Below are positions 7,134 through 22,943 of a stretch of DNA of 23,811 bases, in pieces; position 1 is the stretch's first letter, and the number at the start of each line of letters is the position of its first letter. The position numbers were made by a program, and so were the translations under genes. The notes beneath the pieces were generated by a model that was given only the letters and a program-made list of their open reading frames with translations, was not told where the DNA came from and made no database searches. Source of the DNA: a virus; the IMG/VR virus record IMGVR_UViG_3300032093_000838, positions 1 to 23,811 of that record; one strand, 5' to 3'.

Positions 7134-7502
7134 ATGGCCAACACACTTTACCGCCACGCTGATTTATCCACCGCAACTTATGGCACACCTGTAGTTGCCG
7201 ACATGAAGGCACTGAGTTTCACAGTGTCAGAAACCGCTTCTCCAACAGAAATCAAGGATGACCAGGGGTCGGTTCTAGCGGTTGCCATCCCCGAGCCGGT
7301 TCAAGAAATCTCTATCTCCGGATATCGCACTGGCAGTTTTAGCGCCACCGTTGGCGATACGCTCGCCATCACGATGCCAGCTTCCGTGACTCTGGGAGCG
7401 ACCACCATCGTCACCGGCCTCACGACTACTTACGCGGCCGAGCAATTCGAACAGATCGAGATGACGGTCCGCTCTTACAAGACAGTGATGTCCGCCTCCT
7501 AA
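7134..7502 (+). CDS. Tail tube protein
   Basis: A 122-residue protein, beta-rich throughout: LYRHADLSTATYGTPVV, ALSFTVSETASPTEIKDD, EISISGYRTGSFSATVGDTL, and EQIEMTVRSYKTVMSAS. Size, strand-rich make-up and position before the tail assembly chaperones fit the subunit that stacks to form the siphovirus tail tube. An A/C-rich leader like that of the capsid gene supports high expression. The first codons use more A and T than the neighbouring connector genes. It could in principle be another small beta-barrel virion protein. Confidence 0.75.
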   Translation: MANTLYRHADLSTATYGTPVVADMKALSFTVSETASPTEIKDDQGSVLAVAIPEPVQEISISGYRTGSFSATVGDTLAITMPASVTLGATTIVTGLTTTYAAEQFEQIEMTVRSYKTVMSAS

Positions 7503-7509
7503 TTCCCCA

Positions 7510-7566
7510 GCCCCTCCCGCCGGGGCAGTCGCCACGCGGCTCCCCGGCTCCCATTTACGAGAAATG
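7510..7566 (+). promoter_or_regulatory. Hairpin-rich spacer after tail tube, with start-codon hairpin
   Basis: Two mutually exclusive stems share the same GGGG: GCCCC (7510-7514) with GGGGC (7522-7526), or CCGGGG (7520-7525) with CCCCGG (7542-7547). No T-tract follows, so this is not a classic terminator. A separate small hairpin, CATTT (7552-7556) with AAATG (7562-7566), contains the next ATG (7564) in its right arm. The stretch could lower readthrough from the abundant tube message to the next gene. Confidence 0.4.
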
Positions 7567-8046
7567 AACCCACGACAAATCACCATTTTCACCACGCGAG
7601 ACCTTAAGCTCGCCACCATACTGGATCGCCTCGGCTTCGACTTTGAGAGCGACACCATCGCCACTCGCATCAAACGCGAGAGCGGCGAGGAATCCACGGT
7701 TTTCCATTTCAACTCGGTTCACCCCGAAACCGGACAGCAAGCCGAGGAAATTCTTCGCGTTTTTATCAAGACCAAGCAGGTCATCGATCAGATCACGGAA
7801 GCCGTAACGGGCAAAACTCTGGAAGAAGCCAAACCCATATCCCGGCGCTTGTGGAACGCTCACCTGGCAGCGCATCCCGGTTCTCTTGTGCCTGAGTTCA
7901 CTGCGCTGCTTTTTAACCGCGACGCCCTCCTGACCGTCATCAAATCCATCCCCCGCCAAGTGGTATTCCAGCGCAACGGCAAGACCATTTCCCTGCCAGA
8001 AAATGCAAGCCCCGAGGACAAAGCTCGCCTTGCAAAATTCATCTAA
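7564..8046 (+). CDS. Hypothetical protein between tail tube and tail chaperones
   Basis: A 160-residue soluble protein of unknown family, starting MNPRQITIFTTRDLKLATIL. It has a strand-like FDFESDTIATRIKRESGEESTVFHF, then a helical half (AEEILRVFIKTKQVIDQITEAV; AKPISRRLWNAHLAAHPGSL), and ends SPEDKARLAKFI. No membrane segment or metal motif is visible. Its place between tube and tape measure suggests a tail assembly role. It precedes the G-like gene by 19 bases, so the two are probably cotranscribed. Confidence 0.7.
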   Translation: MNPRQITIFTTRDLKLATILDRLGFDFESDTIATRIKRESGEESTVFHFNSVHPETGQQAEEILRVFIKTKQVIDQITEAVTGKTLEEAKPISRRLWNAHLAAHPGSLVPEFTALLFNRDALLTVIKSIPRQVVFQRNGKTISLPENASPEDKARLAKFI

Positions 8047-8065: not shown

Positions 8066-8473
8066 ATGAAAAAAACGAAAGAAACCCAAGACCTAGAAAC
8101 CGACGATGAAGCCCTCCGCGAGGCTGGAATGCGCGAAGGCACGCGCACATCCGGAAAATTCAAGCTCCGCCCCTGCGTCCCTGGAACCATTAGCATAATC
8201 CGATCCAACATGCTCGAGAAGCGCGATGAGTTCTGGTTCGTCGCCGCCTTCGCCTTCGTCCACACCGCACCGCTCGAAGATGTCCTCGCCGTGGATTCCG
8301 ATCCGGTCGCCTTCAACAAAGCCGTCCGCAAATGGCAGATCGAAAACATCGCCGACCTCGAGGAACAGAACGAACTCTCCCGCCTGGTCTCGGCAGCGTG
8401 GGATAAGGTGAACGCCAGCGAAACCCGCGCGCAGCACGCCTCCGCGCCAACCGGCTCGAGCGGGGGAAAGTAG
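8066..8473 (+). CDS. Tail assembly chaperone, G-like (0-frame product)
   Basis: A 135-residue protein in the lambda G position. I start at 8066 (MKKTKETQDLE) rather than at an ATG 63 bases upstream, which would overlap the previous gene. The leader is A/C-rich and without Shine-Dalgarno. The core FWFVAAFAFVHTAPLEDVL and the helical RKWQIENIADLEEQNELSRL precede a disordered C-terminus ending SGGK. The stop TAG (8471-8473) comes directly after the slippery heptamer GGGAAAG. In lambda, gpG and gpG-T coat the tape measure during tail assembly and are absent from the virion. Confidence 0.8.
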   Translation: MKKTKETQDLETDDEALREAGMREGTRTSGKFKLRPCVPGTISIIRSNMLEKRDEFWFVAAFAFVHTAPLEDVLAVDSDPVAFNKAVRKWQIENIADLEEQNELSRLVSAAWDKVNASETRAQHASAPTGSSGGK

Positions 8474-8691
8474 CCTCCCCCAACTGGCTTGCATCCTATG
8501 TCTACCGCCTCGCCAGCGTCACCGGTTGGGGGTTTCAAGAAATCATGTGGGAGATCCCCTACGCGGCCGGTCTCCAAATCTTGGACGCCGATTCATTCAG
8601 CCGCGGCATACCTCGCGTTTATCTGCGCGATGATCCGGCGGCGGTTTTTGACTCCCTACAAGCGATAGAAAGCGTTTTCCAAAAACTCTGA
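8066..8691 (+). CDS. Tail assembly chaperone G-T fusion by -1 frameshift
   Basis: Slippage of one base back on GGGAAAG (8464-8470) continues in the -1 frame with GTA at 8470 and runs open to a TGA at 8689-8691. It adds 73 residues (VASPNWLASYVYRL, EIMWEIPYAAGLQIL, AIESVFQKL) for a total of 208. The added part has no credible start of its own. The WEIPYAAGLQIL block resembles the T-domain of gpG-T proteins, which recruits tail tube subunits to the chaperone-coated tape measure. Identity rests on the slippery site, its stem and gene order. Confidence 0.8.
8464..8532 (+). promoter_or_regulatory. Programmed -1 frameshift signal
   Basis: The heptamer G GGA AAG (8464-8470), the sequence used by lambda G-T, is followed at once by the 0-frame stop TAG. 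After a 6-base spacer (8471-8476), CCCCCAACTGG (8477-8487) can pair with CCGGTTGGGGG (8522-8532): 11 bp with one G-U pair and a 34-base loop. Spacer length and stem strength are what a stimulatory structure needs. Confidence 0.85.
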
Positions 8692-8695
8692 TCCC

Positions 8696-9460
8696 ATGGG
8701 CAACCCGATCCAAATCGACGACAAAAAGTTTCTTCGCAAAATGAAGAAATACGAAGAGGTCGTCGGCAAGGAGGTCGCCCAACTCGTCCAGAATGCCGGT
8801 CGCCTCTGCGCCATCGAGTGCGCCAAATACACCGCCCCGCGCGGCACCGGATCGGATTCCAAAAAGACAGGCGAGAAAAGAGTCACTAAAGACCTGCGCG
8901 GGATTTTCACCATCGTGAATCCTTTCTGGTGGGATGAGGTGAACAACATGTCTTACGACGCGCTAATCCATAAAAAGCACGGAGGCGTCTGGGTTACCAA
9001 AGATCAGAAAAAAATCTCAGGAGTTGAAGAAGCAAAAGCCTGGCATAAATCCAATCGCTCCGGCGGAAAAACCGACCGACTTGGGCTCATAGATCGGGCG
9101 GTCATTCAGCAAAGAGTCTACAAAAAATACCTCGCCGAGACTTTGAAGAAAGTCGGCATCTCAAAAGCCGGGTGGGCAATCGTCGCCGAGCAGTGCAAGG
9201 CCGATGTCCGCGAGCCGCTGAAAGGCTTCCCTGCATGGGTAAAGCGCAACATGCCCAAGGCCAGCGGAGTCGTTTCCGAAGCCAAGCGCGACGGCTTTGG
9301 CTTCGAGATCAAACTGAACAATAAAGTTGGCTATTCCCGCGACACGCTGGACTCCCAATCCGAATCCTTCGCTGTGAACCTGGCGAAAAAGAAAATGCTT
9401 TCGATGATGAATAGAGCCATCCGCTACGAGAAAGCCAAACAAGCCCAGCTTCAATCATGA
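8696..9460 (+). CDS. Hypothetical tail protein, possibly gp10-like
   Basis: A 254-residue, lysine-rich protein, 4 bases after the end of the T frame and overlapping the tape measure gene by ATGA. The N-terminal half has an alpha-helical KFLRKMKKYEEVVGKEVAQL, then CAIECAKYTAPRGTG, a pattern seen in HK97 gp10-like tail completion proteins (helix followed by an APRGTG turn). The C-terminal half ends MLSMMNRAIRYEKAKQAQLQ. A tail completion or minor tail role is inferred. In lambda no gene lies between T and H, so this is an extra gene. The ATG sits in the palindrome CCCATGGG. Confidence 0.65.
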   Translation: MGNPIQIDDKKFLRKMKKYEEVVGKEVAQLVQNAGRLCAIECAKYTAPRGTGSDSKKTGEKRVTKDLRGIFTIVNPFWWDEVNNMSYDALIHKKHGGVWVTKDQKKISGVEEAKAWHKSNRSGGKTDRLGLIDRAVIQQRVYKKYLAETLKKVGISKAGWAIVAEQCKADVREPLKGFPAWVKRNMPKASGVVSEAKRDGFGFEIKLNNKVGYSRDTLDSQSESFAVNLAKKKMLSMMNRAIRYEKAKQAQLQS

Positions 9461-11661
9461 GCGATGTAACAGTCACACTCGGGGCGAAAGACGAGGGACT
9501 TTCTAAGTCCCTTCAATCTATTTCCAAGAATCTTGATGACTTGAAAAACAAGGGAACCGGAGCCTCCAAAGGCTTCGACCTTTCTTTCGGCAAGATCGGC
9601 CTCGCGGCCGGTGTGGCCGGTGCCGCCGTGAAAGCTGGCATGATGGCCGTCGAGGGCGCGACCGCCGCCGCCCGCGCGGTGGTGGATGGATTTGGCAAAG
9701 CGATCGATCTCGGCGGCAAGCTCACGGACCTTTCCTCCCGCACCGGCGAAACGGCGGGCAGCCTGATGGTGCTCCAGCGCGCGTTTGAAAACTCCGATGT
9801 CGGCGCGGATAAGGTCGGTTCCACGATTAACAAGTTGCAGAAATTCATGGCCGAGGCCGCTGCCGGTGGGGCCGAGCAGACCGCCACGATGCAGGCGCTC
9901 GGCATCTCGATGAGCGACCTGGCGGGAAAAACTCCCACCGAGCAGCTCCAAGTCTTCGCCCAAAAGATCGCCGGAATTTCCGATCCCGCCCAGCGCGCCC
10001 GCGCTTCCATGGAAGTCTTTGGCAAAAGCGGCGGCGAACTCCTCCCTCTCCTCAATAATTTTTCCTCCGAACTGGAAACCGCGAAGGGCCAACTCGGCTC
10101 GATGCCTGGCGTGATGGACCGAACGGCCAAGGCGCTCGACGACTTGGGCGACAACTACAAGGCGATCCAGGCGAAAACTATGGAGTTTGCTGCTGGATTC
10201 CTCGAGGACGCGCTCCCTGCTCTCAATGCTTTCGTGGCCTCCCTCTCCGGCGTCGATGCCGCAAGTTTCGGCCAAAATCTGATGAAGCAAGTCATGAGCG
10301 TGGCGGATTTTCTCATCGGCGCTTTCAAGGCCCCGATGCCCGCCATCGAGGCGATCGGCCTCGGCCTCCTCGCCGGGGTGAAAATCGCGGGCAACAACTA
10401 CCTCAATTCCCTCATCGACGCGGGCCGGTTCGCCAAGGCGTTTTTCTCATCTGATCTCCCTGGCGTGATCTCCGGCGTGCTCGGCAACACGATTCTCAAA
10501 GTCTTTGTGGATGGCGCGAAGGCTTTCATCGATGCGATCCGTAGCGTGATCCGCGCCTTCGAGGATTGGCTCGGCGCGGCGATCAGCAATGTCGTTGATT
10601 TTTTCACGCGCAAATTCTCGGGCGTGATGAATGCAGTAGCCAAGGATTTCCAGGCTGCAATGAGCGACCCGATCGGATTCGTGAGCGGCAAGCTCGATAG
10701 CGCCCTAACGGCCGTGATGAACAACGGCGGCGACACTTTCAAATCCTCGTTCGACAAAGCCGGTGGCAGCGCGCTCGACAAGATCAGCGCCGGGCTCGGC
10801 GCGGCTTCCGAGGAATACGGCAAAAAAATCGTGGATGGCTCGATCCGTGCCACGAATGAGTTCGACAAGCTCGTCGGCACCCTCGGTAAGAGCGATCAGG
10901 ATTTCTTTGGGGCCAAAGCTACCGCCACGGCCGCCGCCGAGAAATTTGACGAAGTAAAAGCCGCAGGCACCAAGCTCCGCGAGGATTTCGAGAAATCAGC
11001 AACCTCAGCGGACGCGGCCAAGGACAACACGAAAAACGCCGCCGCCGAGGCCGAGGCCATCGCGGGCAGCTTCAATAAAGCCGAAGGCTCATCAAAAAAA
11101 ATCAAAGAAGAGTTGAGCGAGTCGGCGAAGCTCATGAAATCCATCGCCGACGCCGAGGCCAAAGATGCCGTGGACAAAGGCGGCAAGCTCGGCAAGCGCG
11201 TCCAGGACCAGATCGCCAGCGGGAATTTCGCCGGTGCCCGCCGCACCGCCGGAAAGATTGCGGCAAACGAAGCCGAGGCCAGCGTGCGCGGCACCGGCCA
11301 GAACCGCGACCGCCGCAGCATGGCCGACATCGGCAGCGATTACGGATTGAATCAAGGCAGTGGCGAAAGCGACGCCTCATTTAGCTCCCGCATTAAAAAC
11401 GCCCGTGAAAACGGAGTTTACGAAGACTTCAGCAACCTGCCGCCAAAAAAATCAGGCCTCGAGGAGATGAAAGCCAAAGGCTCGCTCAAGGACGAAATCG
11501 CCGCCAAAAAATCCGGAGTGGATAAGCCCGGCCAAGATGGCCAGAAGCCACCCGCCAAAGGCGACACCGCCAAGAAAGGCCTCGAGGGCGTCGTGGATGA
11601 AATCAAGAAACTCCTCGAAAAAATCGAGCCCAAGCTCCCCGTCGCCGCACTCACCGCATGA
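9457..11661 (+). CDS. Tail tape measure protein
   Basis: A 734-residue protein. It starts MSDVTVTLGAKDEGLSKSLQ, has the typical LGGKLTDLSSRTGETAGSL followed by VLQRAFENSDVGADKVGSTI and GKSGGELLPLL (TP901-type tape measure core), and hydrophobic stretches in the middle (AIGLGLLAGVKIAGNNYLNS). The C-terminal third is a helical, charged and Ala-rich region. Tape measure proteins set tail length at roughly 1.5 angstrom per residue, which would give a tail of about 110 nm; that figure is extrapolation. It is coupled by ATGA to both neighbours. Confidence 0.92.
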   Translation: MSDVTVTLGAKDEGLSKSLQSISKNLDDLKNKGTGASKGFDLSFGKIGLAAGVAGAAVKAGMMAVEGATAAARAVVDGFGKAIDLGGKLTDLSSRTGETAGSLMVLQRAFENSDVGADKVGSTINKLQKFMAEAAAGGAEQTATMQALGISMSDLAGKTPTEQLQVFAQKIAGISDPAQRARASMEVFGKSGGELLPLLNNFSSELETAKGQLGSMPGVMDRTAKALDDLGDNYKAIQAKTMEFAAGFLEDALPALNAFVASLSGVDAASFGQNLMKQVMSVADFLIGAFKAPMPAIEAIGLGLLAGVKIAGNNYLNSLIDAGRFAKAFFSSDLPGVISGVLGNTILKVFVDGAKAFIDAIRSVIRAFEDWLGAAISNVVDFFTRKFSGVMNAVAKDFQAAMSDPIGFVSGKLDSALTAVMNNGGDTFKSSFDKAGGSALDKISAGLGAASEEYGKKIVDGSIRATNEFDKLVGTLGKSDQDFFGAKATATAAAEKFDEVKAAGTKLREDFEKSATSADAAKDNTKNAAAEAEAIAGSFNKAEGSSKKIKEELSESAKLMKSIADAEAKDAVDKGGKLGKRVQDQIASGNFAGARRTAGKIAANEAEASVRGTGQNRDRRSMADIGSDYGLNQGSGESDASFSSRIKNARENGVYEDFSNLPPKKSGLEEMKAKGSLKDEIAAKKSGVDKPGQDGQKPPAKGDTAKKGLEGVVDEIKKLLEKIEPKLPVAALTA

Positions 11662-13366: not shown

Positions 13367-15418
13367 ATGAAGTTCTACATCGATCTCGCCACCCGCCGTT
13401 TCGTGCGCGGTCCAGCCTCCAGCATTCCGCTGGAGCGGCTATTCCTCAAGCGCCGCGACAAGATCGATGTCGAAGTGATCTTCGTCGAAAAGTCCGCCAT
13501 CGTCGCCACGCCCACCGGCACGAGCTTTTCCACTGGCCTCAAGACCAATTTCTCGGACACCGCCTTCCTCGCTCTATCCGATGCCGACGGCCTGCTCGAT
13601 CTCTACACGACCGCCCTCGAGGCGCTTTTCGCCGACGATCCTGCGTCGGTCTCCGCCTACCTCGAGGTCAAGACCTCCCGCCCTGGCGAAGAGACCCGCA
13701 CCAGCACGCTTGGCGTAGACATTGAGAACTCCGTGATCCTCGGCGACGAGGGCTCCCCGGCGGCCGAGGTCTCGCTGAAAGCCACCAGCGCCGATGCCAC
13801 CGCTGGCGTCTCGAATGAAAAATGGATGACGCCTCTGCGCGTCTCCGAGGCGATCGCCGCGCTCGGTGGAGGCTCCGGCGGCACGGCGGTGAATTGGACC
13901 ACGCTCACCGGCAAACCCGCCTCGTTTCCTCCCTCCTCCCACACACATCCGATCAACGAAGTCACCGGCCTGCAAACCGCGCTGAATTCCAAGCAAGCCG
14001 CGGGCAGCTACGCAGCCTCCACGCACACGCACGATGCCAGCGCGATCACAAGCGGCACGCTGAGCATCGACCGCATCCCCGTGCTCCCCTCGCAGGCTCC
14101 CGTGGTGGTGAATGGCCTGCTCGCTAGCATCCCCTCCTCACAGGAATCCTCGATCGTCACCGGCACGGTGGTCATTACCTCGGACGGGAAGCGGTATGTT
14201 TACAAGGGCACCGGAGCGAAAACCTCGGCCGAGTCCTACATCATCCTCGCCGACATCGCGCCAAGCTGGGCCTCGATCTCCGACAAGCCAGCCGCCTTCG
14301 CACCGACCGCACATGCCCACCTCGTCTCTGAGATTGCTGGATTGCAAGGCGCGCTCGATGCCAAGCAACCCGCTGGCAGCTACGCCAGCGCCGCGCAAGG
14401 AGCGAAGGCCGACACCGCCAGCCAGCCGGGCCACATCCACGCCAGGGCAGATGTCACCGGCCTCGATTCCGCACTCGCCACAAAAATCACCGGGTCCGGC
14501 GTGGCCGACATGCAAGTCGTCACCGCCCTGCCATCCTCGCCATCGCCTACGACCTTCTACATCGTCATCCCCAGCGGCGCGACAACCGCCAGCGCCGTCA
14601 CGCTCGGCAGCGTCTCGCTCTTCACCGGCAGCGGGTCTGGCGGCGGAGGAGGAGGTGGCGGAGGCGGCGATACCACTTTCTCGCCTACCTCGCTCACTTC
14701 TCTCGCTCTGTGGCTTGATGCCACCACTGGCCTTTATAGCGCCACCACTGGAGGCTCACTTGTTACCACCAACGGCGGGGCCATTGCGCGGTGGGAAGAC
14801 CGCTCCACCAACGCCCGCCATTTCACGCAGGGCACCGTCAACAGCCGCCCTGTGCTATCCACCGCCTCGATCAACGGGAAAAACACAATCTCGTTCGACG
14901 GCACGGATGATTTCCTCGATAGCCTCTATAACCGCAGCTACCCGGCACAATCTCTCTTTGTTGTTTTTTCGATTTTTGCAGCAAAATCGACTTCTGGGTT
15001 ATTTTCCGAATCTGAATCGGGGGCATCCGATATAATCACTTACCTTCCGGCAATGCAGCGGGGCTCGGCTATCCCATTGATTGCATCCGCCGCAAACGGG
15101 AGCAGTGATGCGTTGTCTGCAAACAATTTAATCTTGTCAACTTTTGCAATAGGAACATTCACGCACACAGGAACGCAGATCATAAACTACCTAAACGGCG
15201 TTGCCGCATCGGCCGCAGTCGATACATTTCCCGCCACAAATCGCGAAGTTGTTCGCGCTCGACTCGGCGCACGCATCAACAGCACCGGAGGCATAGTTCA
15301 AGGCACCAACCTCTCCGGATCAATCGCTGAGGTCATCGCCTACGACCGTCTCCTCACCACCGCCGAGCGCCAACAAGTTGAGACCTACCTTGGCACCAAA
15401 TGGGGGATTGCGCTGTGA
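13367..15418 (+). CDS. Large tail fibre with lectin-like C-terminus
   Basis: A 683-residue fibre protein. Residues 1-150 form a coupling-type domain shared with the gene at 15712. Then comes a repeat region with HxH motifs: SHTHP and THTHD, then AHAHL and GHIHA, each HxH except THTHD leading into a GLxxAL segment. A Gly run (about residues 423-434) acts as a hinge. The C-terminal third starts LTSLALWLDATTGLYSA and reads as a concanavalin/LamG-like beta sandwich (WEDRSTNARHFTQG; TISFDGTDDFLDS; GSIAEVIAYDRLLTTAERQQ). That domain type is common in surface-sugar recognition. Part of it (about 14955-15200) is AT-rich. Confidence 0.85.
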   Translation: MKFYIDLATRRFVRGPASSIPLERLFLKRRDKIDVEVIFVEKSAIVATPTGTSFSTGLKTNFSDTAFLALSDADGLLDLYTTALEALFADDPASVSAYLEVKTSRPGEETRTSTLGVDIENSVILGDEGSPAAEVSLKATSADATAGVSNEKWMTPLRVSEAIAALGGGSGGTAVNWTTLTGKPASFPPSSHTHPINEVTGLQTALNSKQAAGSYAASTHTHDASAITSGTLSIDRIPVLPSQAPVVVNGLLASIPSSQESSIVTGTVVITSDGKRYVYKGTGAKTSAESYIILADIAPSWASISDKPAAFAPTAHAHLVSEIAGLQGALDAKQPAGSYASAAQGAKADTASQPGHIHARADVTGLDSALATKITGSGVADMQVVTALPSSPSPTTFYIVIPSGATTASAVTLGSVSLFTGSGSGGGGGGGGGGDTTFSPTSLTSLALWLDATTGLYSATTGGSLVTTNGGAIARWEDRSTNARHFTQGTVNSRPVLSTASINGKNTISFDGTDDFLDSLYNRSYPAQSLFVVFSIFAAKSTSGLFSESESGASDIITYLPAMQRGSAIPLIASAANGSSDALSANNLILSTFAIGTFTHTGTQIINYLNGVAASAAVDTFPATNREVVRARLGARINSTGGIVQGTNLSGSIAEVIAYDRLLTTAERQQVETYLGTKWGIAL

Positions 15419-15711: not shown

Positions 15712-16365
15712 ATGAAACTTTTCATCGATCGAAAAAAGCGCGAGTTCGTTAAGAGCGCGGCCAGCAATGTCGCTCTGGATCGGCTCGTGCTCAAACGCCG
15801 CGACCTCGTGCCGCTGGAGTATATTTTTGTCGAGAATGGCGCAGCCGTCGCCATGCCCGCAGGCACCGCCATTACCTGCGCGCTCAAGCTCTCGTTCACC
15901 GATGCAAATTTTCTTGCTTTGGCCTCAGGGGGATCACCCACCCTAAACCTAAACACCGCCCCCCTCGAGGCCGCCTTCTCGACCGGCAAAGCCTCCCTCC
16001 CCGCGCTGATTGAAATCCGCTGGACCGTGCCCGGGGAGACGACGCGAACCGCCACACTGAAAGCCGAAGTTCAAAACTCCGTAATCATCGGCACCGAGGG
16101 CACGCCGCAGGCGATGCCCGATGGCAAAAGCTCCGAGGCGGAGGCTATCGCGGGCACCGATAACGAAAAGTGGATGACTCCGCTCCGCACATCCCAAGCC
16201 ATCGAGGCCGCGCAGATCGTCTACCAATACAGCAGCACCTCCGCCTTTCCCGTTTCGGGCCGGTTGAACCGCCTCTATCTCGCCGCTGACACCGGCAACA
16301 TCCACCGCTGGACCGGCACCACCTACACCGAGGCACCCGGCACCATCGACGCTGGCACTTTTTGA
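15712..16365 (+). CDS. Second fibre-coupling protein, paralogous to the large fibre N-terminus
   Basis: A 217-residue protein. Its first 165 residues match the large fibre: MKLFIDRKKREFVKS against MKFYIDLATRRFVRG, LVLKRRDLVPLEYIFVE against LFLKRRDKIDVEVIFVE, NSVIIGTEGTP against NSVILGDEGSP, and NEKWMTPLRTSQAIEA against NEKWMTPLRVSEAIAA. The short C-terminus (RLNRLYLAADTGNIHRWTG) is a small beta motif found in many fibre proteins. It could attach an alternative fibre to the same baseplate site, or sit as an adaptor. This is a within-phage duplication followed by loss or replacement of the distal part. Confidence 0.75.
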   Translation: MKLFIDRKKREFVKSAASNVALDRLVLKRRDLVPLEYIFVENGAAVAMPAGTAITCALKLSFTDANFLALASGGSPTLNLNTAPLEAAFSTGKASLPALIEIRWTVPGETTRTATLKAEVQNSVIIGTEGTPQAMPDGKSSEAEAIAGTDNEKWMTPLRTSQAIEAAQIVYQYSSTSAFPVSGRLNRLYLAADTGNIHRWTGTTYTEAPGTIDAGTF

Positions 16366-22875: not shown

Positions 22876-22929
22876 GCGACTCAAAATCGCGTTTCTCACG
22901 AAGTGTCGGTTCGATCCCGACCGCCGGTA
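22876..22929 (+). other. Attachment site core: 3' part of tRNA-Leu(CAA)
   Basis: GCGA (22876-22879), a CTCAAAA anticodon loop giving anticodon CAA (22882-22884) and TCGC (22887-22890) form the anticodon arm. A variable arm follows, then the T-arm GTCGG TTCGATC CCGAC (22905-22921) and the acceptor strand CGCCGGT plus discriminator A (22922-22929). CCA is not encoded. The 5' half (acceptor, D-arm) is absent upstream. A 3' tRNA fragment next to a tyrosine integrase is the usual attP/attR core. Confidence 0.8.
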
Positions 22930-22943
22930 ATTTGTTCAACGAA

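Follow-up and report, generated by a model that had tools for sequence, protein, structure and literature searches.

The end of a short gene in a phage genome raises the question of whether ribosomes that reach its stop codon can slip back by one base and continue into a second frame, which has no start of its own. The DNA analysed here, hereafter the window, is the 23,811-nucleotide stretch covering positions 1 to 23,811 of IMG/VR virus record IMGVR_UViG_3300032093_000838. A first-pass annotation, made from its letters, had proposed a programmed -1 frameshift cassette for a tail chaperone pair, G and G-T. The elements of this site are as follows:

8066–8473, plus strand: gene G, a zero-frame, tail-assembly-chaperone-like protein of 135 residues ending in ...SSGGK-stop; present in relatives, with no match in Pfam or PHROGs.
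8464–8470, plus strand: slippery heptamer G GGA AAG, from sequence reading; an in-phase heptamer is found in 69/69 distinct relatives.
8471–8473, plus strand: zero-frame stop TAG abutting the heptamer; a stop (TAG, TAA or TGA) in 69/69 relatives.
8470–8691, plus strand: T, the -1 frame C-terminal domain, 73 residues plus TGA (8689–8691), with no start of its own before residue 26.
8477–8487, plus strand: 5' arm of the stem, CCCCCAACTGG, paired and covarying in relatives as detailed below.
8522–8532, plus strand: 3' arm of the stem, CCGGTTGGGGG, pairing with 8477–8487 across a 34-nt loop (8488–8521).

G starts at the ATG at 8066, and its zero frame, read both by eye and by script, closes with ...GGG GGA AAG TAG, which places GGGAAAG in the X XXY YYZ phase. 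The coordinates proposed for the heptamer, the TAG and the stem held up on direct and scripted reading. The annotation had placed a six-base spacer after the TAG; its length is right and its placement is not, since the 6 nt separating heptamer and stem (8471–8476, TAGCCT) contain the stop codon. T, VASPNWLASYVYRLASVTGWG...FQKL, is read from 8470 in the -1 frame. This frame is open from 8407 and, as had been noted, extends for 73 codons from 8470 without a usable start: there is no ATG, GTG or TTG from the upstream stop to Trp6, and the first in-frame ATG of T is found at residue 26.

To place the site among its relatives, three scans of viral contigs were carried out, which returned 48, 50 and 73 loci in largely overlapping sets. 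In all 69 distinct sequences, which include close relatives and hence are not 69 independent events, the T frame is -1 relative to G, the heptamer is in phase and the next codon is a stop. The annotation had staked its reading on conservation of the downstream frame, and that frame is indeed kept in relatives. Four heptamers are used: GGGAAAG (27 sequences, all with TAG), GGGAAAC (20, with TAA in 17, TAG in 2 and TGA in 1), GGGGGAG (17, all with TAG) and AAAAAAC (5, with TAG in 3 and TAA in 2). This series also bears on transcriptional slippage, in which the G5A3 run would yield mRNAs of altered length that encode the fusion. The window does carry a run of five G before AAA; however, the run changes freely among relatives, where GGGAAAC has just three G and three A, yet phase, abutting stop and downstream stem are all retained, though polymerase slippage needs none of them. 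I regard this explanation as extremely improbable.

GGGGGAG is a noncanonical heptamer, and is confined to one clade (17/69 sequences). It resembles the GGGGGAA common at actinophage chaperone sites, for which the PRFect study proposed G:U re-pairing of tRNA-Glu on GGA as the explanation (PMC10885494), but differs in ending with G instead of A and in being followed directly by a stop. By analogy, a single G:U pair could let tRNA-Glu re-pair on GGA at GGGGGAG, and I infer shifting at this heptamer in its clade. A search of bacterial genomes gave a single match, on a contig of a Verrucomicrobia metagenome-assembled genome, in which T is 93% identical; this match suggests the host phylum, and is not proof for the window itself.

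T is 44–100% identical over its length among the relatives in the scan; a diverse alignment of 20 rows has 20 invariant columns, and substitutions cluster at the third positions of the T frame. Judged by this pattern, T is conserved as a protein, and would thus be a translated product. Once G has ended at 8473, ribosomes could re-initiate or use an internal start and make T alone, with no frameshift involved, and the ATG at residue 26 in the window offers such a start, as does the internal ATG from which T is annotated in a remote homolog, Akkermansia phage Moulinsart (described below). The best-conserved part of T (PNWLASYVY...TGWG) precedes the residue-26 ATG, however, and 24 of the 38 non-redundant relatives have no ATG, GTG or TTG between the upstream stop and Trp6. 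Moreover, in L017, L137 and L138 just 9 nt lie between the opening of the T frame and the shift point, and therefore entry must occur at the heptamer. Synthesis of T alone, which would also give the slippery heptamer no reason for conservation, is very improbable.

Downstream of the heptamer, the stem comprises 11 bp, including one G-U, and begins after 6 nt, within the distance of about 5–9 nt that is typical of structures following slippery sites. The 70-nt fold of the window site has an energy of -22 kcal/mol, which alone is unexceptional (z -1.17 against dinucleotide shuffles); energies lower than most shuffles were obtained for three relatives (L084, L158, L147) and for two remote loci, Moulinsart and L170. 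Across 38 non-redundant sequences, 95.9% of the cells of the 11 pairs are paired, and sliding the partner arm by 1–3 columns lowers pairing to 26–62%. The covariation score is 0.143, against 0.078 +/- 0.009 in shuffles (0/500 reach 0.143), a control under which shared ancestry remains in the score. The outermost pair is G-C in 23 sequences and C-G in 11, one arm contributing Ser AGC/TCC (and Gly GGC) and the opposite arm synonymous Gly GGC/GGG, and an inner pair changes from A-U to G-C in three sequences.

The covariation of the stem falls at mainly synonymous sites. All 38 sequences encode the proline of the 5' arm as CCC, while the invariant proline at T codon 30, outside the stem, uses CCC, CCG, CCA and CCT. 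Part of the conservation of the stem is nonetheless protein constraint, because its arms encode invariant residues (PNW, TGWG); double changes occur in just two of the 11 pairs, and the pair at columns 20/63 is broken in 9/38 relatives. Pseudoknot prediction had been suggested for this region, and no conserved pseudoknot emerged: a scan for conserved helices across relatives, covering 60 nt upstream and 160 nt downstream of the junction, recovered the stem and its register variant and no other helix. A search of Rfam gave no match.

Chance is ruled out as an explanation, since the site is conserved in every distinct relative and the stem covaries. The conserved heptamer, the conserved -1 frame, the covarying stem and the gene order described below sustain the reading of a -1 frameshift cassette encoding G and T, and these comparative data make a programmed -1 frameshift at 8464–8470 very likely. 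I consider it highly probable that the site acts as a programmed -1 ribosomal frameshift signal, through which one message yields two tail-assembly chaperones; I infer the slippage itself, how often it occurs and the role of the products as chaperones. For most ribosomes, translation would end at the UAG after ...GGA AAG, and the product would be the 135-residue G. The stem starting 6 nt downstream would hold the ribosome, and the tRNAs on GGA and AAG would each move one base back, onto GGG and AAA; this could precede the entry of UAG into the A site or come just after it. Slipped ribosomes would then read GUA GCC UCC..., adding the 73-residue T to form a 208-residue G-T fusion (135 + 73). By analogy to lambda, the tape measure protein would be coated by excess G, and GT, the rarer product, would recruit the major tail protein, with the slip frequency setting the G:GT ratio.

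The chaperone role was considered in the light of the neighbouring genes, which are the following:

7134–7502, plus strand: probable major tail protein, upstream of G, assigned by position; conserved in relatives, with no family match.
7564–8046: gene between the major tail gene and G, present in 23/23 relatives tested; no Pfam or PHROG match.
8696–9460: 254-residue gene lying after T and before the tape measure gene, absent from L083 and L147; no Pfam or PHROG match.
9457–11661, plus strand: tail length tape measure protein, downstream of T, with PHROG tape-measure matches; follows T in the relatives tested.

The order major tail, G, T, tape measure is therefore found in the window, with the major tail gene assigned by position and one extra gene on each side of G/T. 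Gene order was tested in 23 relatives; the tape measure gene comes after G/T in these, and a tail-tube-like gene stands before G/T wherever upstream genes could be matched. In L083, L147 and L174 the tape measure gene lies directly behind T.

No family library (Pfam, PHROGs) or fold library bore out the "T-domain-like" label that the annotation had given to the downstream frame. Pfam and PHROGs scans of G, T and the remote relatives returned nothing usable, and tblastn of T against 50,697 phage records found no match, nor did that of the G-T of L150 or the G of the remote L172 against phage records. The folds of G and T predicted with AlphaFold2 have pLDDT values of 72 and 74, and searches of PDB and BFVD with both models gave weak or unrelated matches only. 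A match of the T model to the "tape measure chaperone" of Burkholderia phage Mica (38 columns, E 3.7) was left unused. Because these family libraries are blank and no reliable fold match emerged among solved or viral chaperones, the label "tail assembly chaperone" is drawn from gene order and architecture, together with the remote homologs of T. Known tail chaperones are highly divergent among themselves, and sequence similarity is therefore not strictly defining for them. A real -1 frameshift in which G/GT serves some role other than tail-assembly chaperoning would fit with the two products being unnamed by family or fold libraries, and with the extra 254-residue gene that separates T from the tape measure gene. 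It fits poorly with the location of G/T in the relatives tested, where a tail tube gene lies on one side and the tape measure gene on the other, with the three loci where the tape measure gene directly follows T, and with an architecture and heptamers that are the same as in known G/GT pairs; I judge such a role to be improbable.

A tail-assembly chaperone pair would belong to a known kind, the lambda G/GT frameshift, and what is new is this sequence-divergent protein family. The lambda shift site is G_GGA_AAG (PMC7618472), and lambda gpG/gpGT share with the window the heptamer, the -1 direction, a short C-terminal T extension and a location between the major tail and tape measure genes, but show no detectable protein similarity in the libraries searched. 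The stop abutting the heptamer in every relative and the covarying stem at 6 nt are features of the present family. The Lactococcus phage TP901-1 site is GGGAAAG (PMC4493119), and haloarchaeal virus shift sites are G_GGA_AAC and A_AAA_AAC (PMC5009743). The G/GT pairs of TP901-1 and of haloarchaeal HCTV-1, -2 and -5 thus use the same heptamer set as the relatives here, whereas their hosts are different and T here has no match in the phage collection. The source of the window appears to be a tailed phage of Verrucomicrobia-type bacteria, with two versions of one tail-assembly helper.

Several other features of this genome were observed. At 13367–13470 and 15712–15810, two ORFs of the tail-fibre region open with a similar module (MKFYIDLATRRFV.../MKLFIDRKKREFV...) that carries an LERLFLKRRD/LDRLVLKRRD motif in both, a sequence likeness that suggests duplication of an N-terminal module. 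A strong terminator-like inverted repeat with a T run (ACCATTTTCGTGGCGTCACGAAAATGGTTTTTTT) is located at 2281–2314, after the terminase-side genes. The element at 2490–2525, CCCCTCTGCGTCTCCGCGCCTCTGCGGGAGA, presumably resembles the dispersed repeats of bacterial chromosomes, and would be unusual inside a compact phage genome. A tRNA gene seems to be represented by its 3' half at 22880–22935, with T arm GTCGGTTCGATCCCGAC, acceptor CGCCGGTA and perhaps a CAA anticodon for Leu, and this sequence adjoins an integrase-like ORF starting at 22932; this is a probable attachment site, and ARAGORN found no complete tRNA there.

A T profile run against 388 genomes of the host phylum identified remote T domains. 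In one of these loci, L170, a G-like ORF is followed by T in the -1 frame, with CCCAAAC as the slippery site; the locus also has a hairpin, and a tape measure gene comes immediately after T. Its G-T, used as a tblastn query against phage records, led to Akkermansia phage Moulinsart (ON453896), in which G ends in ...SKN-stop at A AAA AAC TAG, T is in the -1 frame, and a hairpin begins at the same distance as the stem of the window. The Moulinsart record presents this region (10632–11332) as two separate hypothetical proteins, with T from an internal ATG and the frameshift unannotated. Moulinsart is thus similar to the window in its remote T homolog (via L170), its heptamer with abutting TAG, its hairpin position and its Verrucomicrobiota host, but has three further genes before the tape measure gene. 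T-like domains were also found in L171, L172 and L173, with runs of A7–A10 at the G junction and, for L172, in the other frame; these junctions possibly reflect a different slippage mode, and were kept out of the proof for the frameshift. A further T-profile match, L169, was left out; I read its upstream frame as seemingly antisense to a host-like gene.

The position of the stop after the heptamer is invariant in 69/69 sequences, with free choice among the three stops. The annotation had suggested that a stop in this position may strengthen slippage by stalling; published results on the effect of a stop beside a slippery site disagree. In HIV-1, a stop introduced after the heptamer lowers shifting, with the release factor competing, according to bacterial and human-cell data (PMC4373837). 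The pea enation mosaic virus site needs a stop for full shifting, but which of the three is immaterial; in vitro, shifting drops by 72% with a sense codon instead (PMC4737148). In this phage lineage the abutting stop, of any kind, might be a selected and required part of the signal, with slippage taking place while the release factor is awaited and the G:GT ratio coupled to host termination speed. I suggest this only tentatively and find it rather doubtful. The abutting stop is not universal in the wider family, since that of L170, a remote relative, lies five codons past the heptamer.

These observations name two gene products, blank in the libraries, in a group of Verrucomicrobiota-associated phages, one of which, T, is readily overlooked for want of its own start. 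They also correct the annotation of a cultured phage, Moulinsart. Finally, the relatives form a natural series, with four heptamers and one fixed stop position, that is useful for testing the effect of the stop in bacteria.
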